From: a virus
Length of the DNA: 20,975 nucleotides
Virus record (IMG/VR): IMGVR_UViG_3300032182_000311
Location: 1-20,975 of that record
Reading direction: 5' to 3' (one strand)
Shown: piece by piece, positions 4,961 through 18,117 of the stretch
Numbering within the stretch: the first letter of the stretch is position 1
Layout of the letters: every line of letters starts with the position of its first letter
Position numbers and translations under genes: made by a program
Notes under the pieces: model-generated
Told to the model about the DNA's origin: nothing
The model's database searches: none
Seen by the model: the letters and a program-made list of their open reading frames with translations, nothing else

Positions 4961-6910
4961 GTGGACCCCTTTATGATTTCTGATGATTTTGTTGACGCTT
5001 ACGCCGATAAAGAACCCGGCTGGGGTTTCAATGGACTCGGCTATATCGTTTACAAGCGCACTTATGCCCGCCCGGTTGCTGGCGGCGAGCGTACTGAGGA
5101 GTGGCACGAGACCATTCAGCGTGTCGTCAACGGTGCACAAGCCATCGGCGCTGGACTGACCCAGGCCGAGGCAGAAACTCTTTATGACAAGCTCTTCTAT
5201 CTCAAGGGCAGTGTTGCTGGTCGTATGCTGTGGCAGCTAGGCACCGACAACAACACCCGCATTGGTGGAGACAGCTTAGTAAATTGCTGGTTTGTTGACG
5301 TTCAGTGCCCTGAAGATTTCTCGTGGGCGATCGACCGTCTTATGCTTGGCGGTGGCGTCGGCTTCTCCTGCAACCAGCCGGAGCGTCTCGGCACCGTGCG
5401 TCATGCCACGGTCACGCACTCTGACGTGAACGATGCTGACTTCATCGTGCCTGATACCCGTGAGGGTTGGGCTGAGCTTATCGAGCGTGTCGTAAAGACT
5501 TTCGTTGGCGGTCCCGAGGTCAAGGACTCTTTGACCTTCGCCACGCACCTTGTCCGTCCGTACGGCGAACCGATCAACGGCTTTGGCGGCACTGCTTCTG
5601 GTCCGGACATTCTGATTCAGGGTGCCCTTCAGATCGCTGACGTGATGTCTGGTGCTGCTGGCCGTCATCTCAACTCGGTTGAGGTTCTCGATATCCTTAA
5701 CATCATCGGTTCGATCGTGGTTGCAGGTAATGTCCGTCGTTCGGCTGAGATCGCTCTGGGCGACGTTGAGGACGAGTCGTACATGATGGCTAAGCGTTGG
5801 GATCTTGGTAACGTACCGAACTATCGTGCTATGTCTAACAACTCGGTGTTTGTTTCTAACGAGCAGATGGGGCGTCTGGCTCTTGACCCGGAAGCCAACA
5901 TTTGGTCTGGCTATAAGGGTAATGGTGAGCCTTATGGTTTCTTCAATCTTGAGAACTCGCGTGAGTTTGGACGTATGGGTGAGGTTCGTCGTGACGATTC
6001 GATTGTGGGCGTTAACCCGTGCGCAGAGATTCCGTTGGCCCATCGTGAGTCCTGCAACCTCTGCGAGATTTTTCTGCCTCGTATCGACTCTCTGGATGAG
6101 TTGATTGAGATTTCTTCGCTGCTGTTCAAGGTGCAGAAGGCTATCTCCGCTATGCCGTACATCGACCACCAGTCGGATGTCATCACCAGCCAGAACATGC
6201 GTCTGGGTCTTGGCGTGACCGGTGTGGCTCAGGCTCTCGACAAGATTGACTGGCTGGACGAGGCTTACGTGTCGCTCCGCAAGCTGGACGAAGAGTGGTC
6301 TGCTGAACGTGGCTGGCCCGAGTCGGTCCGTCTGACCACCGTCAAGCCTTCCGGCACCCTCAGCCTGCTTCCTGGCGTCACCCCTGGCGTCCACCCGGGT
6401 TTCAGCTCCAAGTTCGTCAAGCGTATGCGTATCGCTGCCGACCACCCGCTGGTCCAGTTCTGCGCCGACCACGGGTACGACACCTACCCGGTGCTCAACT
6501 TCGACGGTACCGAGGACGCACGTACTTCGATCATCGACTTCCCGTGCGAGTTCCCTGAGGGCACCGTCCTGGCTGAAGACATGACCGCTATCGAGCAGAT
6601 GGACCTCGTCCGCAAGCTTCAGCGTGTCTGGGCAGACAACGCCGTTTCGGTCACCGTGTACTACCGCATGGAAGAGCTTCCGGGCATCATGGAGTATCTG
6701 GGTCAGCACTGGAAGGAGATGAAGTCGGTTTCGTTCCTGCTTCACTCGGACCACGGTTTCGCTCAGGCTCCGCTTGGTGAGTTGACCGAGGAAGAGTACG
6801 CCGAGATGGTTGGCGCTCTCACTCCGTTCGGTACGGACCACGTCGAAGAGAACACCGCTATGGAGATTGATGATTCAGATTGTGACGGAAATTCCTGCCC
6901 GATTAGGTAG
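4961..6910 (+). CDS. nrdJ: Class II (adenosylcobalamin-dependent) ribonucleoside-triphosphate reductase
   Basis: A 649-aa monomeric RTPR-type enzyme reducing ribonucleoside triphosphates to dNTPs with a thiyl radical made from coenzyme B12. The start is GTG 4961, eight bases after AAGGAG (4947-4952). The active site is visible: NPCAE at 352-356 gives the radical Cys354 and Glu356; Cys109 (SLVNCWF) and Cys365 (ESCNLCE) form the substrate-reducing pair. The 11-residue spacing from Cys354 to Cys365 equals C408-C419 of the Lactobacillus leichmannii enzyme. The C-terminus has Cys641-x4-Cys646 three residues from the end, matching its C731/C736 swinging pair. PSGTLSLLPGVTPGVHPGF (from 463) is also typical. 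It is about 90 residues shorter than the 739-aa Lactobacillus enzyme. The 3' half is strongly C-ending in codon use, unlike the T-ending genes that follow. Such enzymes are common in phages, usually with replication genes; here it follows the capsid gene. Confidence 0.95.
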   Translation: MDPFMISDDFVDAYADKEPGWGFNGLGYIVYKRTYARPVAGGERTEEWHETIQRVVNGAQAIGAGLTQAEAETLYDKLFYLKGSVAGRMLWQLGTDNNTRIGGDSLVNCWFVDVQCPEDFSWAIDRLMLGGGVGFSCNQPERLGTVRHATVTHSDVNDADFIVPDTREGWAELIERVVKTFVGGPEVKDSLTFATHLVRPYGEPINGFGGTASGPDILIQGALQIADVMSGAAGRHLNSVEVLDILNIIGSIVVAGNVRRSAEIALGDVEDESYMMAKRWDLGNVPNYRAMSNNSVFVSNEQMGRLALDPEANIWSGYKGNGEPYGFFNLENSREFGRMGEVRRDDSIVGVNPCAEIPLAHRESCNLCEIFLPRIDSLDELIEISSLLFKVQKAISAMPYIDHQSDVITSQNMRLGLGVTGVAQALDKIDWLDEAYVSLRKLDEEWSAERGWPESVRLTTVKPSGTLSLLPGVTPGVHPGFSSKFVKRMRIAADHPLVQFCADHGYDTYPVLNFDGTEDARTSIIDFPCEFPEGTVLAEDMTAIEQMDLVRKLQRVWADNAVSVTVYYRMEELPGIMEYLGQHWKEMKSVSFLLHSDHGFAQAPLGELTEEEYAEMVGALTPFGTDHVEENTAMEIDDSDCDGNSCPIR

Positions 6911-7147: not shown

Positions 7148-7510
7148 ATGTGGACTTCACTTAAGGATTTTAAAAACAACCGTATTCATTACGAGTTGAT
7201 GCTCGTTGCTGACTGTGTGAAGTTGTATGGGTTGTCTGAGACTGTTCCGGTGGATGTTGACGGCCGTTTTTCGTTGCCTGCTGTTGTTGCAATGGAGGCG
7301 GGGATGGTGCGGGACCGGTTTAAGTTGTCAAATAACTTTGATGAATTGTTACAGAGTGTTCCAGGGTGGCGGGTTCGCTCATTTATTATGTGTTGGGATG
7401 CTATTGAGTTAGAGGTGGAGGAAGATATTGTGGAGTGGTCTGAGCGAGTTGGTCGGGATGAGGTGGTTAGGCGTATTGGGTCTTTGGCGAATGTGATCGC
7501 CCATGCCTAA
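7148..7510 (+). CDS. Unknown 120-aa protein
   Basis: No family recognised. The ATG at 7148 lies six bases after a -10 box, so the mRNA is probably leaderless. The protein has a basic N-terminus (TSLKDFKNNRIHYE), a central helical part with a single CW pair (IMCWDAIELEVEEDIVEW), and an acidic helix followed by DEVVRRIGSLANVIAHA. It has no signal peptide or membrane span. It has a promoter of its own and is followed 52 bases later by another promoter and gene, so it is probably expressed as a single gene. Codon use is T-ending and GTT/TTG-rich, in contrast with the reductase upstream. The position suggests an accessory gene. Confidence 0.65.
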   Translation: MWTSLKDFKNNRIHYELMLVADCVKLYGLSETVPVDVDGRFSLPAVVAMEAGMVRDRFKLSNNFDELLQSVPGWRVRSFIMCWDAIELEVEEDIVEWSERVGRDEVVRRIGSLANVIAHA

Positions 7511-7526: not shown

Positions 7527-7556
7527 TTGACACACTTACTGGGTTTTTAGTAAACT
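7527..7556 (+). promoter_or_regulatory. Consensus leaderless promoter
   Basis: A perfect TTGACA (7527-7532), 18-nt spacer, TAAACT (7551-7556), then six bases to the ATG at 7563. This is the best sigma-70-type promoter in the window. No Shine-Dalgarno fits between it and the ATG. Confidence 0.7.
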
Positions 7557-7562
7557 AGGTGT

Positions 7563-7949
7563 ATGCGTCACGAGACTAGATGGCAAAGACACTTTGAAGC
7601 TTTATTGGTGTACGAAGATCGGTACGGTGACGCCTTAGTCCCTACCGGGCATGTTGAGTTTGTTGGGCCTAATGAATGCATTAACTTAGGCAATTGGGTC
7701 AGTTACATGCGTACAAGATACAGACAGGGCAAACTGAGCGTTGACCGGATACAACGGTTAGAGGGTGTTGGTACGTGGACGTGGGGGCCGGTTAGGCCAG
7801 GACCAAAGTCTAAGAACTATATCTCTGAGAGAAATAACAGCATTTATAGTGAGCACAAAAGCGGGCAGACGCTCGCAAATATTGGAAACAAGTACAGCCT
7901 GTCTAGGCAGAGAGTGCACCAGATAGTGAAGGAGTATGAGGATGAATAG
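7563..7949 (+). CDS. Small HA-domain protein with sigma-70 region 4-like HTH
   Basis: A 128-aa protein with two recognisable parts. Residues 1-78 match the helicase-associated (HA) domain pattern: W-x3-F-x3-L-x-V-Y, then G-x2-L-V-P, LGNWV-x3-R-x2-Y-x2-GKLS, R-x2-RLE-x2-G-x-W-x-W. HA domains are short helical nucleic-acid-binding modules usually found at helicase C-termini. Residues 103-125 (TLANIGNKYSLSRQRVHQIV) match the helix-turn-helix of sigma-70 region 4, which binds the -35 box in sigma factors. No helicase motor or sigma region 2 is present. The gene has a consensus promoter and apparently a leaderless mRNA, and overlaps the next gene by eight bases. A DNA-binding regulator of late transcription is my inference; a homing or modification accessory role is the alternative. 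Confidence 0.75.
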   Translation: MRHETRWQRHFEALLVYEDRYGDALVPTGHVEFVGPNECINLGNWVSYMRTRYRQGKLSVDRIQRLEGVGTWTWGPVRPGPKSKNYISERNNSIYSEHKSGQTLANIGNKYSLSRQRVHQIVKEYEDE

Positions 7950-8250
7950 GGATAGCGGCGATTGGGATCGCTTTACAAATAAAATTACAGGAAATGAAGA
8001 GTTAGAGGAGATTTCTACTATGCAACAGTCCGCAGTTTTAGCCCTACTTAATGGGTTAATCACGATGGTAGTGCTTTCTGCTATTTCAGCGTTAGGGCTG
8101 ATGGTGGGCAACAGTGTTCTGATTGGAGCGTGGCCGGAGTTTACAGCGATTGCTCCAGGCATCGGGTACTTCGATGCGTTCCATGTGTCTTATATTGGTT
8201 GGTTTCTGTTTGTTATGAAGCAGACTGTTGTTGCGAATGTGATGAAGTGA
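7942..8250 (+). CDS. Small membrane protein, unknown function
   Basis: A 102-aa protein from ATG 7942, which overlaps the stop of the preceding gene and has AAGGAG (7929-7934) seven bases upstream. An internal start at ATG 8020 also has a good ribosome site (AGAGGAG, 8004-8010) and would give 76 aa without the polar N-terminus; both may be used. The first 27 residues are polar and acidic. A long hydrophobic stretch (about residues 30-62) can make one or two membrane spans, followed by a PEFTAIAPGIGYFDAF loop and another span (YIGWFLFVMKQTVVANV). A holin is conceivable from size and topology, but no lysis gene is nearby and the dual start may be chance. It is probably co-transcribed with the HA/sigma4-like gene. 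Confidence 0.65.
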   Translation: MNRDSGDWDRFTNKITGNEELEEISTMQQSAVLALLNGLITMVVLSAISALGLMVGNSVLIGAWPEFTAIAPGIGYFDAFHVSYIGWFLFVMKQTVVANVMK

Positions 8251-8251
8251 T

Positions 8252-8722
8252 ATGGCTGTTACTGAGAGTGTTTCGTCGTGGCAGGACCATGCGTGGGCGC
8301 ATGTGAGTGACGTGTTTGATCGCCGGTCTGGGCGGGTTGTGTCTTTGGATGATATTCGCGCATATGTTGATGATCTGATTGATACTTATTTTTTGGGTAA
8401 TATGCCTTTGGTTGATTTGGAGGTGTGGTCGGAGTTAGCTGTTATGGTTAAGGACGCGGATGTCGAGTTAGATCGTGAGTTTGTGTGGTCCACGCTGTGT
8501 AATAAGCAGCGTGATTATGGTCCTGAGAACATTTTGCGATTTGGGCATAGGGGGCTGATTGTCCGGTTGCATGATAAGGTTGCTAGGCTTGAGAATTTGT
8601 TGAAGTCTGGTAAGACTCCGGAGAATGAGTCGGTGGCTGATACGTATTTGGATATTGTGGGGTATTCTGTGATTGGTTTGATGTTGTTGGATCGTAGCTT
8701 TTTGAAGCAAATGGCGGATTAG
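8252..8722 (+). CDS. DUF1599 / Nmad1 (nucleotide modification associated domain 1) protein
   Basis: A 156-aa protein. The C-terminal two thirds carry the DUF1599 signature: CNKQRDYGPENILRFG (residues 83-98), HDKVARLENL (107-116) and ESVADTYLDIVGYSVIGLMLL (about 127-147). The acidic/Asn residues around KQRDYG and the D-x2-LDI helix resemble the all-alpha NTP pyrophosphohydrolase-like layout. The family has been linked by comparative genomics to phage nucleotide metabolism and modified DNA bases; the reaction is not established. The N-terminal 80 residues are helical and acidic. The start ATG lies one base after the previous stop, so translation is probably coupled. It shares a cassette with a ribonucleotide reductase, which supports a nucleotide role. 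A candidate terminator follows. Confidence 0.8.
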   Translation: MAVTESVSSWQDHAWAHVSDVFDRRSGRVVSLDDIRAYVDDLIDTYFLGNMPLVDLEVWSELAVMVKDADVELDREFVWSTLCNKQRDYGPENILRFGHRGLIVRLHDKVARLENLLKSGKTPENESVADTYLDIVGYSVIGLMLLDRSFLKQMAD

Positions 8723-10475: not shown

Positions 10476-11348
10476 ATGATGAGTGGTAGCCGGACGGCAA
10501 AACAGTTTGTCACTAACTATCTGGCGGCAGATTTGCCGTCTCGTTTGGTGAACTATCGGAATTACTGGAACTTGACTGCAGATCAATTGCCTGATCCGGT
10601 AATGTATGCTAACTATGAACCGTTTGCGTTGGACAGGTGGCCCACGATTATTACGTTGGTGATGGGTACTGATTCGATTGAGCGTGTTGGTTACTCTGGG
10701 GTGGGTGAGCCTCAGTTGCATGTTGCTTATGATATGCGGACTTATGTGTGGATTCGTGCGACGGGTACGCAGGTTGTCACAGATCAAAGAGATAATTTGA
10801 CAACTGTGGTTAGAGAAGCGCTAATGGATCATCCCTCTTTGTCAGCGTATGACACTGATGTGCCGTGCTCTCCTAAGATTGATGAGGGCACGATTGTGGA
10901 ACAGTTTTCGGACCTTACGTTGATTAAGGGTGAGCGATTGTTGGCGGGTTCGTTTATCGGCTACACACTGACGTTGGATGAAACTATCACTGCTGACACG
11001 TTAGGTATCGTGCAGAGCACGAACGCTATTGTTCAACGTATTCCGGTTACGCCTAATGCTCCTACGAATGTGGTCGCTGTAGCGGGTGATACGGAGGTGA
11101 CGTTAGCGTGGGTTGAGGCTACGTGGAATGGCGGGGTCTACGAGATTACTGGCTATGTGATTCAACAAAGTACAGATGATGGTACTACGTGGACCACGAT
11201 TGTGGCGGATACCGGCTCGGTTGATGGGTTTTACCGAGTTACGGGTTTGACTAATGGTACGGATTATCAGTTCCGTGTTGCTGCGTTGAATGCTGCTGGG
11301 ACTGGTGCGTATTCTGCGAGTTCGTTAGAGGTCACGCCGTCTGCGTAG
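10476..11348 (+). CDS. Neck/tail-terminator-like protein with C-terminal fibronectin type III domain
   Basis: A 290-aa protein. Residues 1-190 fit a small tail-terminator or neck protein: helix AKQFVTNYLAADLPSRLVNY, strand WPTIITLVMGTD, then YDMRTYVWIRATG, a long helix with DNLTTVVREALMDHP, and GSFIGYTLTLDETIT. Position after the gpS-like gene supports this, but I do not see a diagnostic motif. Residues 194-290 are a clear fibronectin type III domain: PNAPTNVVAVAGDTEVTLAW, ITGYVIQQSTDDGTTWTTI, YRVTGLTNGTDYQFRVAALN, AGTGAYSASSLEVTPSA. FN3 and Ig-like add-ons on phage virion proteins often face outward and may bind host surface sugars. ATG 10476 or the adjacent ATG 10479 could be used; AGGA at 10460 is the only ribosome site. 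Confidence 0.7.
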   Translation: MMSGSRTAKQFVTNYLAADLPSRLVNYRNYWNLTADQLPDPVMYANYEPFALDRWPTIITLVMGTDSIERVGYSGVGEPQLHVAYDMRTYVWIRATGTQVVTDQRDNLTTVVREALMDHPSLSAYDTDVPCSPKIDEGTIVEQFSDLTLIKGERLLAGSFIGYTLTLDETITADTLGIVQSTNAIVQRIPVTPNAPTNVVAVAGDTEVTLAWVEATWNGGVYEITGYVIQQSTDDGTTWTTIVADTGSVDGFYRVTGLTNGTDYQFRVAALNAAGTGAYSASSLEVTPSA

Positions 11349-11373: not shown

Positions 11374-14300
11374 ATGGCCAGGAAACCTCGTGTTGTACCT
11401 TTTGTGCCGTTTCCTCGTGACGGTGACCTTGATGGTCTTGTTCAGGATGGAACGATTTGGGAGCGCCCTAAAGGGGCGTATTTGCGCTTTGTTGATACGG
11501 GCGAGATTTGGAGCGAGCGGGGTCAGGTTGATCGTGGCCGGGTTGAGATTGTTCGTCCGGATGGGTCTGTTTGGGATTTTACGCCTTCGTGGTATGAGGG
11601 CGAGTCCACGTTGGGTTCGATGTTGGGTACTTTGGGTGATGATTTACCGTTGGTGTTTGAGTCGACGGGCATGTTGCCTCGCGGATTTTTGGGTCCGACG
11701 TTGGCGGATGAGTCTCGGTTTGATGGTGAGTTTGATAATGTGGCTCCATTGTCCGACGCAACAGCAATGGGGCGGGAGGGGGTGCTTCTGTTAACTGAGA
11801 ATGACGAGAAGATTAGGAGTTTGTTGTCGCCGGATGCGGTTCGGCGTGGGATAATTAAACAAGAGACTCAGGATAGACTGGCAGCGTTTGTTAGGCTGTC
11901 GGATGCGTCTAGAAGTAGTATTAATGGAAGTGCTTTGTTGATGCGTCAGCGTTTGTTTGATGTCATGCACGAACGTTTGTATGGCACTCCTATGAAGCAG
12001 CGGGGAGCGCTTCCGGAGTATGAGCGGTTACTTCCTTTTGGATTAGAGTTAGTGACTGTTGTGCGTGATGGTAGTAAAGATTCGTTTGAGACGCTTCGCA
12101 GTAGGTTGGCGCAGGCGCGGAAGACGGCGGTGATGAGTAATCGCCCGGTGGAAGAAGTACTTGGTCCGGTGGATGAGGATACTGTACAGTTTGTACGGGC
12201 GTTGACTCAGACTATGCCGGTTACGACATGGCATGAGCACCACATTAAAGAGCTTGTGGAGGCTTACGTTAGTCGTGATTTTGATAAGGCGTATTACCAT
12301 ATTGAGTGGTTAGATAATAATACTGATAGGGAAAAGCAACAGCAGTATGATTGGTTGAATCAGTTGCAGTATATGGCCGATATCGGCAGTAATTCTGATA
12401 AGCGTGAGGAATTGGATCGTATATTTAGGCAGGGGGCACAGTTTAAAGATTACGATTATTACATGGGTTATGCTTTTGAGCGTACGTCGAATGATATTGC
12501 GGAAGAAGCGGTCCGAATCAGGTCGGATATGGCAGCGTTAGATACGGATAGACGTATCGAGTTTGCTGATTCGTCTCATACGATTCCGTCTGATAGTAGG
12601 TTGGTGGATCGTGCGGGAGATCACAGCGGCAAGTATCAGGACTTTGATCTTATTACTCAAGTTTTGCGAGATATTGAAATTGCTGAGCTTGAAATTGATC
12701 GTTTAAATAGGGAAGAGGAGCCTCAGGTAGCCGGAGAGGTTCGTGGACGTTTAGCAGAGCTAAAAGCTGAGTTAAAGCAGGTAACGAAGCCTATAGATAT
12801 AGAGTTAGAGTTTAGCGATGAGGTGCTGAACGAAATGGGCGGAGCCGGGATTTTAGGGTATATTCCGGGCGGTGCAGAGAATCCTGAGTTGTTGCGAAAA
12901 ATCCGGAAGGCTGCTGATTCTTTAAGCCCAGAGTTTCGTCCTAAAAAGATTCTGATCGGCTTTCCTAAAAAGAAAGACGGCAGTATCAGTCCTAATTCTG
13001 CGGGTAGCTATAATGGCAGTAATGGGGTTTTGACGATTGCTCCACGTATGCTGGGCTTGAGTGATCATTTGGTCGTAGATAAGCAACGTCAGACGATTAG
13101 GCGGTTTGGTCCGGATGATGGAGCGGACGGTGTAGAGCTTCCTTTGGGTATGGCCAATACTCCTGAATTGCAGGAGTTGTTTGATATTTCCAAAAAGTAT
13201 GGTCTGGATACTATTTCGTCTAAGTCTTTGGAGACTGTGGCTGTTCACGAGGCGGTTCATAGGATAGATTATTTGCTGACTTCAGATTTCTTTTTTAGAC
13301 GGCAATTGAATAATTCTTATGAGTTAGAAGAGGCTCTACAGCAGTTAATGGCATTAAGGAGAGATCCGAGTCGTACTATTGCACAGGTTCAAGCGATGCA
13401 ACTGCGCGAGGCGGAGCTTAAAAGGGAGCAGGTAAATCTAAGTTCACTAGAAATTACTGGCAGGTATATCACAAACACAAATTCGCCTATTCGTAGACTT
13501 TCTCAAAAATGGATAGATGAAAATCAGGGGTGGTTAGAAGAGTATGCTAGAAACTATGAATATGATCCTCGGGGAGCGGATCAAGGATATCTGCTATCTA
13601 TCTTCGGACAAACTCCGGGCTATGATTACATTAATGAAAAGTTCGGGGTGCCGTTAAAGGATCGTGCGGGACTTGACCTTAGTTCCGAAGTAGGCAGAAA
13701 CGTGATCCGTACTGAGCGTATGGAGGTTTTGGCAGAAGTGCTGTCGTCTCAAATCTTGAAGAACCGCAGAATTCCAGCGGGAACCAGTGAAGCCGGTAGT
13801 AATCTACCTGAAGAGCTAGATAGGTTGGCGACTCAAATTATCCCCGAGGAACTTAAGTTTATTCTGTCCGAGCGTGGCTGGTCTGAGGACGAAATTCCGC
13901 CGCTAACGGCTATGCCTGCTAGGCGAAGTTTGAAGCTTAGTGAGTCTACCCCGTGGGATCGGGAAGATTTACTGAGCACTGAACGGCGCAGTATGGTACC
14001 TAAACTTTCTATTGATCCTGCGACTACTCTTGAGATGTTGAGCGATGCCGAAAGGGATGACCGAGACCACCGAATTCTGGGCGAGTTGGCGCAGGCTCAG
14101 ATAGACGAGCCTAAACTGTTTAGGAACGGTAAGCTCGTAGACAAGCTGTGGGCACCGTTTTCGCCTCCTCCGCATATTGCGGGGTCGGGCCTGCGTGACG
14201 AGTTGGGTGAGGCTCAGTCATGGCGGGAGGTTGCACAGATCCTCAGAGGAAAGCGTGTAGTTGTTTTTGATACTGAGACGGCTGGGCGTATGGACCCTGA

Positions 14301-16212
14301 TGAGGTTGATGATGACCGTATCGTTCAGTTGGGCGGGGTGGTGTACGAGAACGGTATGATTGTGGATCGTTTCTCCATGTATGTGAATGTGGATTTTGAT
14401 GAGTTGTCGGAGTGGTCCCAAACGAATCTAGTTGATGCCGAGGGCAAAGCTATGTCTAGGGAGTTTTTGGATAGGCAGCCCACGATGTCTGAGGTGTTTG
14501 AGGAGTTTATGCAGTTTGCTAATGGGGAAACTGATGGCTCTGATGTGGTGTTTATGGCGCATAATGCTGCGTTTGATTTGAAGCGTATGGAGTTGGAGCG
14601 GCAGCGTCATAATCCCGATGGTGTGCCGTCGTTTGATTTGGATGAGGTCACGTATTTTGACACGATGGGGTTGGGTAATATTGTTAAGCGTTCTGGGGTT
14701 GAGGGCGCGCCGGGTAGTGCGTCGTTGAAGAAGCTGCAGGAGTTTTTCGGGTTGGAGGATTTTTCGTGGCATACGGCTGATGCTGATTCGGAGATGACGG
14801 GTCAGGTGTTGTGGCGTTTGTTGGATTATATGGATGAGAATGATGTGTCGTTGGATGGTCTTGATCCTGTTGCGGGGTTGGAGCGTCAGCGGGAGGAGTT
14901 TGCTGCGTATGAGGCGGAGATTCCTGAGTTTTTGAGGCAGAAGGAGCGTTTGGCTGAGTTGCGGGGTTTGTCTGATCAGTTGCGTTCTGATCGGGATGAT
15001 GCTGTTGATGCGATGATTGGTATTGGTGCTGAGGGTCTTGATGGTGGTGAGGAGTCTACGGATATTCCTGGGGGAGGTGTTGTCGAAACTGATGATGGCG
15101 GTTTTTGGGTTCCTGGGCCTCCTCCTGTCGGCTTTAATGAAGACGGGAAGGAACAATGGGGGCGTGGTGTTGAATTATTGAGAGAGCGTCCTGATTTGTT
15201 TAAGACGCAAGTTATTGCTGATGATGGTTTACCCGTGCCTAAAGATGAGAAACCCGGTCTTGCTGACATTGGATCAGTTTTCGATGTACTACCAGAGGAT
15301 GACGCTGTTGCGGCTATGACAATTAGGAGGGAAATCGAGCAGGCTTGGCAAGCTGAAATCACTCGGGCTATTGCACTAAATAAGATTGACATAGGTAACC
15401 CTGAAGAGGTTTGGGGCAGTGACACTGATGAAAGGTCGGAGGCGAACCAGCGGTATGGTGCTGCCGCTAGGGCTGATCGAGGCATGTGGGAAACCCTTCC
15501 ACAAGGATTGTTACATGTAACTACAGGTTTGAGTGGTTTGCAAGATGGAGGGTTTAAAACTCGTGCACAGTTAAGGGACGAGTCAGGTGAAGCTCCTGCA
15601 GGGTTGGGCGGCGGCACAAGTAAAGCTATTAGCTTTACGACCGACCCGTTGGTTGCGGATTCTATCGTTCGTGGTATTCATGAGATGCATGAGGTTGTCC
15701 GTGACGATACGGGTCCGGCTGCCGTGGAGAGAATGAAGTCAGAGATCGCTGCCTGGGACACGAGTATGCCTGAAGATGTGAGAGAGAAACTTTTATCGGC
15801 TGCTCCAGCCACGATGAAAGAGCGTGGAGAGTTCTATAAAGATTATTCGTATTGGCGACAGTTCAATGTTCCGAACCGTCCCGATCCTCTGTTTTGGAGT
15901 CCTAATTATCAGGCGTACGCTGATCTTGACCCTAATGAGGTTGGTGTCGTTACGGTTAATCCGTCACGAGCGGGTACAAGAGGCTGGCAGGTTGAGGGAA
16001 TGGGCGAGTGGCGTACTATTCCTGAAGCTGTAGAAATTGTTCAAAGCGAAGCTCGTCCCACGATTGTGGATGATATGACTGCCACGCTTGATGAGTTGGA
16101 TACGGTTCGTTCGTCTGCGCCAGATTTTGGGCTTCCGCCAGGGCCTGATTCTCCTAACAAAAAGAATTCTTTACTCAGCGACCCCGCTGCGACCTTAGAT
16201 GAGATAGACTAA
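11374..16212 (+). CDS. Giant virion-region multi-domain protein: metallopeptidase, DEDDh exonuclease, ART-like
   Basis: A 1612-aa protein. Residues 1-60 are beta-rich. A coiled coil is likely at 428-470. HEAVH at 625-629 (VAVHEAVHRIDYLL), preceded by NGVLTIAPRML and followed by RMEVLAEVLSSQI (783-794, Glu784/Glu788), resembles the anthrax lethal factor/ATLF zinc metallopeptidase layout of HExxHxxD plus a downstream E-x3-AE helix. Residues 960-1150 are a DEDDh 3'-5' exonuclease: FDTETAG (Asp966, Glu968), HNAAFDLKRM (Asp1068), WHTADADSEMT (His1133, Asp1138). The last 240 residues begin GLLHVTTGLSGLQDGGFKTR (His1381), with GLGGG (1411) and an end strand GEWRTIPEAVEIV (1544-1556), like ADP-ribosyltransferase folds; this part is tentative. 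No helicase or peptidoglycan hydrolase is evident. It lies between tail completion and sheath genes, so it is probably packaged and injected, like phage polyvalent proteins; that role is inferred. Confidence 0.8.
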   Translation: MARKPRVVPFVPFPRDGDLDGLVQDGTIWERPKGAYLRFVDTGEIWSERGQVDRGRVEIVRPDGSVWDFTPSWYEGESTLGSMLGTLGDDLPLVFESTGMLPRGFLGPTLADESRFDGEFDNVAPLSDATAMGREGVLLLTENDEKIRSLLSPDAVRRGIIKQETQDRLAAFVRLSDASRSSINGSALLMRQRLFDVMHERLYGTPMKQRGALPEYERLLPFGLELVTVVRDGSKDSFETLRSRLAQARKTAVMSNRPVEEVLGPVDEDTVQFVRALTQTMPVTTWHEHHIKELVEAYVSRDFDKAYYHIEWLDNNTDREKQQQYDWLNQLQYMADIGSNSDKREELDRIFRQGAQFKDYDYYMGYAFERTSNDIAEEAVRIRSDMAALDTDRRIEFADSSHTIPSDSRLVDRAGDHSGKYQDFDLITQVLRDIEIAELEIDRLNREEEPQVAGEVRGRLAELKAELKQVTKPIDIELEFSDEVLNEMGGAGILGYIPGGAENPELLRKIRKAADSLSPEFRPKKILIGFPKKKDGSISPNSAGSYNGSNGVLTIAPRMLGLSDHLVVDKQRQTIRRFGPDDGADGVELPLGMANTPELQELFDISKKYGLDTISSKSLETVAVHEAVHRIDYLLTSDFFFRRQLNNSYELEEALQQLMALRRDPSRTIAQVQAMQLREAELKREQVNLSSLEITGRYITNTNSPIRRLSQKWIDENQGWLEEYARNYEYDPRGADQGYLLSIFGQTPGYDYINEKFGVPLKDRAGLDLSSEVGRNVIRTERMEVLAEVLSSQILKNRRIPAGTSEAGSNLPEELDRLATQIIPEELKFILSERGWSEDEIPPLTAMPARRSLKLSESTPWDREDLLSTERRSMVPKLSIDPATTLEMLSDAERDDRDHRILGELAQAQIDEPKLFRNGKLVDKLWAPFSPPPHIAGSGLRDELGEAQSWREVAQILRGKRVVVFDTETAGRMDPDEVDDDRIVQLGGVVYENGMIVDRFSMYVNVDFDELSEWSQTNLVDAEGKAMSREFLDRQPTMSEVFEEFMQFANGETDGSDVVFMAHNAAFDLKRMELERQRHNPDGVPSFDLDEVTYFDTMGLGNIVKRSGVEGAPGSASLKKLQEFFGLEDFSWHTADADSEMTGQVLWRLLDYMDENDVSLDGLDPVAGLERQREEFAAYEAEIPEFLRQKERLAELRGLSDQLRSDRDDAVDAMIGIGAEGLDGGEESTDIPGGGVVETDDGGFWVPGPPPVGFNEDGKEQWGRGVELLRERPDLFKTQVIADDGLPVPKDEKPGLADIGSVFDVLPEDDAVAAMTIRREIEQAWQAEITRAIALNKIDIGNPEEVWGSDTDERSEANQRYGAAARADRGMWETLPQGLLHVTTGLSGLQDGGFKTRAQLRDESGEAPAGLGGGTSKAISFTTDPLVADSIVRGIHEMHEVVRDDTGPAAVERMKSEIAAWDTSMPEDVREKLLSAAPATMKERGEFYKDYSYWRQFNVPNRPDPLFWSPNYQAYADLDPNEVGVVTVNPSRAGTRGWQVEGMGEWRTIPEAVEIVQSEARPTIVDDMTATLDELDTVRSSAPDFGLPPGPDSPNKKNSLLSDPAATLDEID

Positions 16213-16216
16213 CGAT

Positions 16217-16441
16217 ATGAGTTCAGAAGAAAACAAACAACTACCTAACGAAGTCATGAATGTGTCGGCTACCGAGCCGCCATCCAGTCAGGATGTTCGT
16301 GAATATCGAGCGCAGGTGCTTGAGAGATACGCTGAAGTGGTTAAGAGGGCAGGGCTTCCGCTGAATGAGAGCGGCACTGTTGACTGGAAAGCGGTCATTG
16401 AGGAAGAGCGCGCCAAGCTTGAGGCTAAAGACGATTCGTAA
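16217..16441 (+). CDS. Small charged 74-aa protein
   Basis: No family recognised. The protein is hydrophilic and acidic, starts MSSEENKQLPNEV, and has a likely amphipathic helix (QDVREYRAQVLERYAEVVKR) and a second helix EEERAKLEAKDDS. The ATG comes four bases after the stop of the giant gene with no clear Shine-Dalgarno, so it is probably translated by coupling. Small helical proteins between tail genes often act as chaperones or partners of a neighbour; here that could be the giant protein or the sheath, by position only. Confidence 0.6.
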   Translation: MSSEENKQLPNEVMNVSATEPPSSQDVREYRAQVLERYAEVVKRAGLPLNESGTVDWKAVIEEERAKLEAKDDS

Positions 16442-16447
16442 TCCTAC

Positions 16448-16483
16448 CCACGTAGTTACACTAGGTTTTGCTACTGGCGTGGT
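16448..16483 (+). terminator. Weak hairpin terminator candidate
   Basis: CCACGTAG (from 16449) can pair with CTAC and CGTGG (16471-16482) around a TGG bulge, followed by an A/T-rich stretch with no clean T-run. It would separate the giant gene unit from the sheath unit. Confidence 0.3.
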
Positions 16484-16500
16484 AAAATAAATTTTGATAG

Positions 16501-16546
16501 AGCGTACGCTTTGCGTATCCCGCAGGGCATGTTCAATACTAGTATT
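16501..16546 (+). promoter_or_regulatory. Two perfect palindromes upstream of tail sheath gene
   Basis: AGCGTACGCT (16501-16510) and AATACTAGTATT (16535-16546) are exact 10- and 12-base palindromes, 24 bases apart, in the 131-nt gap before the sheath gene. They look like protein-binding sites. A promoter for the sheath-tube pair must lie in this gap if the unit is transcribed separately, but no convincing -35/-10 pair stands out. Confidence 0.4.
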
Positions 16547-16572
16547 TTAACTACAAGAATATGGAGGCAATT

Positions 16573-18117
16573 ATGCCGGGAGTTAATGTCACCACTACAG
16601 TACGTACTGGTCCTGTGGGTACTGGCACTAATGTAGCGGGTCAAGCTTTTTTAGTGGGTACTGCTGAGCGTGGGTCAACGACTGAGCCTACGCTTCTTCG
16701 TAGTTTTAGGGACTACACGACTTTTTATGGTAATTATCAGTCGGGTAATTTGTATTCGCATGTGAAGACGTTTTTTGATGAGGGCGGTTCTCGTTGCTAC
16801 GTTTTCCGGACGACTGATTATGACACGCCGGGTGGTCAGGTAGCTGCGACACTGACTTTGAATCAGGGCGCTTCTGCTACGTTGACGCTGACGGCTGCTA
16901 ATGTGGGCACTTGGGGCAATGGTTTGACCGCCACGATTGAAACTAGTGTCGAGGATGCTAACATTTTGGCCGGATATTTCCGTGTGAAGATCGCTTTGGA
17001 CGGGGTTCAGCTATTGACTTCTCGTGATCTTCTGGACAAGGACGATGCGATTAACTTCATTAATACTTCTAATGTGAAGCAGTTGGTGGTTGCGTCGGAT
17101 GCTGATCCTGCGGTAACGAACCCTGATGCGATTGCGGATGCGTCGTTTACCGGCGGGGCGGAGACTGCTCCGACTGCGGCTCATATTGTAAGCGCTTTGG
17201 ATGGCACGTTTGATCCGGACCCTGACGTGACTAGTTGTTTTAGTCCGACGTTGGGTGTGGGCGCTGTTGCGGCGCCTGGCTATACAGGATCAACTATTTG
17301 GAATGCTTTGAGGGATCATGGTGTAGCTGCGAACCGGGTTGCGTTGTGTGCGTTTACGTTGGGAGATTCTTCGGCTACGGCTAAGTCTGCGGCTGCCGGG
17401 TATTACACCGATAGTAACGCACAGTCGATGGCCTTCTATTGGCCACACATTAAGGTACCTTCTCCGAATACGACGGAGTTGGCGACTGGTCAGTCTTCTG
17501 TAACTACGGCCACGATTAATTTGTCGCCTGAGGCGTATGCTGCTGCGGCACGGTCGAAAGCGGTTGAGGCTGCGGGTGGTCCGTGGCGTCCGGGTGCGGG
17601 CCAGATTTCTGAGGCCGTCAATGTTGCGGATCTGTATCAGGACGTGACTCCGGCTACGGCTCAGACGTTGGATGACGCCCGTATTAACGCTATCCGTAAG
17701 GTAAACGATACGATTCGGGTGTACGGTGCTCGCTCGGTCTCTAGTGACGAAGCGAATTGGCGTTACATTACTCAGCAGGATACAATTAATTACATCAAGG
17801 ATGGTATCGAGGAACGTATGGAGCGTTTCTTGTTTGATGTAATTGACGGTAACGGCGTGTTGTTTGGTCGGATTCGTTCAGCAATTACTGCACTGCTTAA
17901 GCCTATTGCTAAGTCGAATGGCTTGTATGCTGCGTTTGATGCGAACGGTGGTCAGATTGACCCTGGGTTTACCGTTGATGTGTCTACGGACAACAACCCG
18001 ACGACTCAGCTAGCCGGTGGCGAGGTTACTGCTACGGTCGGTGTTCGGGTGTCTGGTGTGGCGGACTTGATCAATGTTGTTATCACCAAGAGCAATCTTG
18101 TTGATCCTCTAGTGTAA
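16573..18117 (+). CDS. Contractile tail sheath protein
   Basis: A 514-aa protein whose subunits form the outer contractile tube. The start ATG 16573 follows GGAGG (16563-16567) by five bases; the in-frame ATG at 16561 overlaps that ribosome site. It has the family pattern: N-terminal PGVNVTTTVRTGPVGTGTNV (extended arm), GQAFLVGTAERGSTTEPTLL, a FRDYTTFYGNYQSGNLYSHV segment, GGSRCYVFR, and the central domain with TLTAANVGTWGNGLTATIE. The conserved C-terminal core includes FYWPHIKV, GPWRPGAGQ, the NAIRKVNDTIRVYGARSVS helix/strand, WRYITQQDTINYIKDGIEERM and a closing strand VGVRVSGVADLINVVITKS. Length is normal for short-sheath myoviruses. It is followed 14 bases later by the tail tube gene, the usual pairing. 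Confidence 0.94.
   Translation: MPGVNVTTTVRTGPVGTGTNVAGQAFLVGTAERGSTTEPTLLRSFRDYTTFYGNYQSGNLYSHVKTFFDEGGSRCYVFRTTDYDTPGGQVAATLTLNQGASATLTLTAANVGTWGNGLTATIETSVEDANILAGYFRVKIALDGVQLLTSRDLLDKDDAINFINTSNVKQLVVASDADPAVTNPDAIADASFTGGAETAPTAAHIVSALDGTFDPDPDVTSCFSPTLGVGAVAAPGYTGSTIWNALRDHGVAANRVALCAFTLGDSSATAKSAAAGYYTDSNAQSMAFYWPHIKVPSPNTTELATGQSSVTTATINLSPEAYAAAARSKAVEAAGGPWRPGAGQISEAVNVADLYQDVTPATAQTLDDARINAIRKVNDTIRVYGARSVSSDEANWRYITQQDTINYIKDGIEERMERFLFDVIDGNGVLFGRIRSAITALLKPIAKSNGLYAAFDANGGQIDPGFTVDVSTDNNPTTQLAGGEVTATVGVRVSGVADLINVVITKSNLVDPLV

Follow-up and report, generated by a model that had tools for sequence, protein, structure and literature searches.

A small phage protein joining an HA domain to a helix-turn-helix, encoded with a membrane partner, as a candidate transcription regulator

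HA-HTH is a 128-residue phage protein that combines an HA domain with a C-terminal helix-turn-helix (HTH), and it is on balance probably a DNA-binding transcription regulator whose gene heads a leaderless operon that also specifies a membrane partner. Its gene lies at positions 7563 to 7949 on the forward strand of the window, a 20,975-nucleotide stretch of IMG/VR virus record IMGVR_UViG_3300032182_000311. Computation reveals both domains, a leaderless-type promoter, a coupled membrane gene, and conservation in two branches whose genomic surroundings differ. A phage transcription regulator had been proposed in a sequence-only reading of the window and is still the best reading; that HA-HTH binds DNA, acts on transcription, and works together with the membrane protein is what we infer. 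The pairing of HA-HTH with a membrane protein points to an undescribed two-gene phage regulatory module rather than a piece of a true sigma factor.

HA domains are found mainly as the tails of helicases, and to our knowledge they have no established ligand. In the window protein, HA covers residues 3-70 and matches 63 of the 64 positions of the Pfam profile PF03457 (62.3 bits, E 5e-17; curated cut-off 28.4 bits). It is followed by a WxWGPxxPGP linker (residues 72-81) and the HTH (residues 84-127). The sequence-only reading had described such a fusion with neither helicase nor sigma core, and this holds: HA-HTH is a stand-alone open reading frame that, unlike the usual HA context, lacks a helicase motor. 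HA is present in all 19 relatives scanned with Pfam, and each of 13 viral records checked has a single copy. SF2 helicase tails contain the same domain family (e.g., a 1181-residue helicase with eight HA copies on contig L101, a Bacilli MAG), and the pattern LG-W(V/I)--R---(KL)S--R is common to these repeats and the phage HA. In contrast to the helicase tails, the phage HA is a single copy, without a helicase, fused to an HTH. This ordinary helicase is also the one cellular match, and a search of 295 genomes from the phylum of L101 returned just its own genome. The fusion as a whole matches no library family; no paper on the function of PF03457 or on an HA-HTH fusion was found in the open-licence literature. 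HA is probably a second binding module, for nucleic acid, and the HA-HTH proteins are basic (median net charge +6 across 93 distinct proteins).

The HTH is small and generic. The sequence-only reading had assigned it to sigma-70 region 4 and proposed profile searches of both halves; these place HA well above its cut-off and detect an HTH at residues 84-127 or so, whereas membership in the sigma region 4 family is rejected. The match to Sigma70_r4 (PF04545) spans only the HTH core, about 23 residues, and scores 19.2 bits against a cut-off of 24.1; one relative, L157, exceeds this cut-off at 25.3 bits. Mor (PF08765) is matched at exactly its cut-off (24.9 bits), in the C-terminal part of the profile only; Mor positions 1-57 have no match in the window protein, in which the corresponding half is HA. 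At E<=0.1, HA, Mor, and Sigma70_r4 each match all 19 relatives scanned. HTH_7, HTH_23, and HTH_28 also match other family members, and PHROG 532 and 836 (late transcriptional activators) match the HTH of all 19, weakly. The HTHs of Mor, resolvases, KorA/ArdK, and YlxM fit about as well as sigma region 4. Because the relatives match Mor, Sigma70_r4, and mostly further HTH families, the HTH is real and these matches do not resolve its family. KorA/ArdK, YlxM/UPF0122, and serine resolvases have similarly short HTHs with weak sequence and structure matches, but they lack the HA half and differ in overall architecture.

An AlphaFold model repeated with 47 sequences (mean pLDDT 88) has a pTM of 0.6, so the orientation of the domains is uncertain. 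HA is modelled as helices 3-21, 42-52, and 60-67 plus a small hairpin, and the HTH as three high-confidence helices (84-99, 104-111, and 115-127), the last of which is the recognition helix that the sequence-only reading had called for. Foldseek searches of the PDB returned nothing but generic HTHs, all with E above 0.001; Mu C in an initiation complex ranked first, without being significant. Among viral models, a phage "Helicase associated domain" protein matched best (E 6e-4).

Relatives of HA-HTH are encoded on at least 341 IMG/VR contigs, as counted in a scan whose alignment was more diverse. Two earlier scans had given 41 and 50 viral contigs and a branch-2-centred scan gave 334, the sets overlapping; the best 80 of the 341 and the best 80 of the 334 were read, and most contigs were counted only. 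Branch 1, which includes the window, comprises 50 loci with 55-100% identity, and branch 2 has roughly 40-54% identity. All 93 distinct proteins share, without exception, residues W72, W74, G75, P76, P79, G80, P81, S114, R115, Q116, Q120, and I121, a conservation favoured in part by how the members were selected, because the scans used short linker, HA-core, or recognition-helix patterns. The recognition helix reads approximately LSRQRVHQIV, with S-R-Q---Q-I invariant. Chance is excluded because the relatives are numerous and conserved. Searches with the window protein and two relatives (L160 and L172) gave no match in 50,697 phage records, and ten small open reading frames beside the capsid gene of the nearest cultured phages (GMA6, ChisanaKitsune, and Cantare) contain neither an HA domain nor an HTH.

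The HA-HTH gene is preceded by a sigma70-type promoter (7527-7556, forward strand) composed of TTGACA (7527-7532), an 18-nt spacer, and TAAACT (7551-7556). The strong promoter reported in the sequence-only reading is thus real, and it recurs in branch 1, where relatives with upstream sequence present keep the -10 box and TTGACA (TTGACG in one). Only 6 nt lie between the end of TAAACT and the ATG at 7563, so the HA-HTH mRNA is predicted to be leaderless. The same prediction extends to the family, because a TANNNT -10 box ends 6-8 nt before the ATG in 91 of 93 distinct members, as compared with 7.2% of 921 control genes. Across the genomes of branch-1 phages (eight contigs), -10 boxes most often lie exactly 6 nt from the ATG, a sharp maximum of 62 sites against about 3 per position otherwise, and leaderless genes are therefore a general trait of branch-1 phages. 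Leaderless-type genes in branch-1 contigs (L102-L142) include recA and the tail chaperone. A candidate palindromic operator, TGTC-N5-GACA, noted by visual inspection of branch-1 promoters in only some members, was dropped.

Leaderless genes are common in Actinobacteria; in Mycobacterium avium, for example, they account for one in three mapped starts (PMC3774663). The nearest cultured capsids belong to Gordonia and Brevibacterium phages (about 45% identity); together with WhiB genes and the leaderless genes and promoters, this suggests that the hosts are Actinobacteria.

In one branch-2 subgroup, CGAACATATGTTCG-type palindromes immediately precede the -10 box and fit the Streptomyces LexA consensus tCGAAC-N4-GNNCGa (PMC9380542). 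A LexA-like palindrome directly adjoins the upstream side of the HA-HTH operon's -10 box in L159, L174, L183, L193, L209, L212, L219, L233, L234, L238, L244, L256, L259, L260, and L264; SOS control is possible. Clusters of the LexA-box-like palindrome GAAC-N4-GTTC, often 15-60 bp apart, occur in L161 (~5847-5910), L165 (~5855-5967), G006 (~42.0 kb and 44.7 kb), G011 (16280-16657), and G325 (101555-101637), and may be a LexA sponge, an origin, or an operator cluster. As a general HA-HTH site GAAC-N4-GTTC was rejected; since it is absent from several branch-1 contigs (G001-G003, G008, and G012), it more likely represents host LexA boxes of one subgroup.

Overlapping the HA-HTH stop is the gene of the predicted operon partner (7936-8250, forward strand), a 104-residue membrane protein with two hydrophobic segments, of which one is clear and the other weaker. 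A small transmembrane gene is located 3' of HA-HTH, mostly overlapping it, in 81 of 93 distinct members versus 2.7% of 921 control genes; this and the other neighbourhood counts refer to distinct proteins, not independent events. In 12 of the 93, no such gene was detected within 150 nt, and one subgroup among them has no suitable open reading frame within that distance. The membrane proteins of the two branches are weakly alike (hhalign probability 81%). The third gene of the cluster (8252-8722, forward strand) encodes an NMAD1/DUF1599 nucleotide-modification-associated protein (PF07659, 32.4 bits; cut-off 25), a gene found nearby in 79 of 93 family loci.

Gene order in branch 1 is nearly fixed: major capsid, a 262-residue protein, class II ribonucleotide reductase, a 120-residue protein, HA-HTH, the small membrane protein, NMAD1/DUF1599, and head-tail connector genes, with sheath and tube often coming next. 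The 120-residue protein (7148-7510, forward strand, in the window) belongs to no known family and is present in 50 of 51 branch-1 loci, the window among them; in L087, L091, and L096 only, a 365-374-residue gene, possibly a mobile insertion, separates it from HA-HTH. Most branch-2 loci retain the HA-HTH/membrane pair, and usually an oppositely oriented NMAD1 gene, in other surroundings (a MoxR-type ATPase with its partner gene, and WhiB genes); structural genes are still present in L157 and L164. In branch-2 loci (e.g., L155, 5813-7929, reverse strand), an AAA_5 (MoxR-type) ATPase gene and a gene for a ~460-520-residue protein with a DCSGS motif form a conserved pair beyond HA-HTH on the opposite strand. 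Farther along the window, a structural-gene neighbour (10476-11348) has a C-terminal fibronectin type III domain, and a 1612-residue open reading frame amid tail genes (11374-16212) contains a PF00929 exonuclease domain (42 bits, residues 963-1145) and a HEAVHR motif.

In the proposed mechanism, HA-HTH would head an operon with a strong leaderless host-sigma promoter and would be translationally coupled to the membrane protein. The recognition helix would read DNA, and HA, joined through the invariant linker, would add a second contact, probably to nucleic acid; the membrane protein would probably control or execute the output of HA-HTH (e.g., by trapping the regulator at the membrane). No binding site for HA-HTH was found in the upstream regions, whose promoter elements vary between subgroups although the recognition helix is invariant. 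Simple autoregulation at these elements is therefore unlikely, and the helix probably recognises a single shared target, not the operator of HA-HTH itself. Also weighing against the regulator reading are the small, generic HTH, the 12 members in which no transmembrane gene was detected within 150 nt, and the weak likeness between the membrane proteins of the two branches.

A fixed, host-wide target would also suit a mimic of sigma region 4, whose HTH would bind either host -35 elements or RNA polymerase and whose HA would touch polymerase or DNA, so that HA-HTH rivals host sigma or redirects it at many promoters. LSRQRVHQI aligns with SRERVRQI of sigma (SigB alignment). Arginine and glutamine, invariant in the 93 proteins, occupy the positions of R584 and Q589, presumed to be two of the three residues with which sigma region 4 contacts bases, and L157 passes the Sigma70_r4 cut-off. 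Such mimicry is nonetheless unlikely: the window protein, which has no sigma regions 2 and 3, lies under that cut-off, KorA/ArdK HTHs outscore sigma in the PDB, no RNA-polymerase-binding feature was identified in HA-HTH, and neither TTGAC nor TTGACA is enriched upstream of branch-2 HA-HTH genes. The phages' own consensus promoters, which should work without an activator, also speak against recognition of -35.

It is quite unlikely that HA-HTH is instead no regulator but the DNA-binding half of a membrane-linked pair that anchors DNA at the membrane or excludes superinfection. The near-universal coupling to a small membrane protein is consistent with this, as is a separate r1t-type holin in G006, because of which the partner need not be the holin and its assignment as the only holin was rejected. 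Against it, known exclusion or anchoring families gave no match, and several members have ~40-60 nt between the HA-HTH and membrane-protein genes. Also quite unlikely is an activator of late phage promoters like Mor/C of phage Mu, small phage proteins whose HTH half appears similar in sequence and fold: the Mor, PHROG, and Mu C matches and the position amid structural genes in branch 1 favour it, but HA replaces the N-terminal dimerisation domain of Mor, promoters and gene order differ, most of branch 2 is away from structural genes, and branch-1 late genes, the tail chaperone among them, have consensus -35/-10 promoters that should fire without an activator.

The preferred reading thus remains a DNA-binding regulator with a membrane partner. 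A broader version, in which a widespread two-gene module with a membrane-controlled HA-HTH reads one fixed host-wide element (possibly -35, as a sigma region 4 mimic) and steers host transcription for hundreds of uncultured, probably actinobacterial phages, is likewise unlikely. An HA domain beside an HTH in a protein of 128 residues offers a minimal system for learning what HA binds, and uncultured phages gain a candidate control gene whose predicted membrane partner is directly testable.
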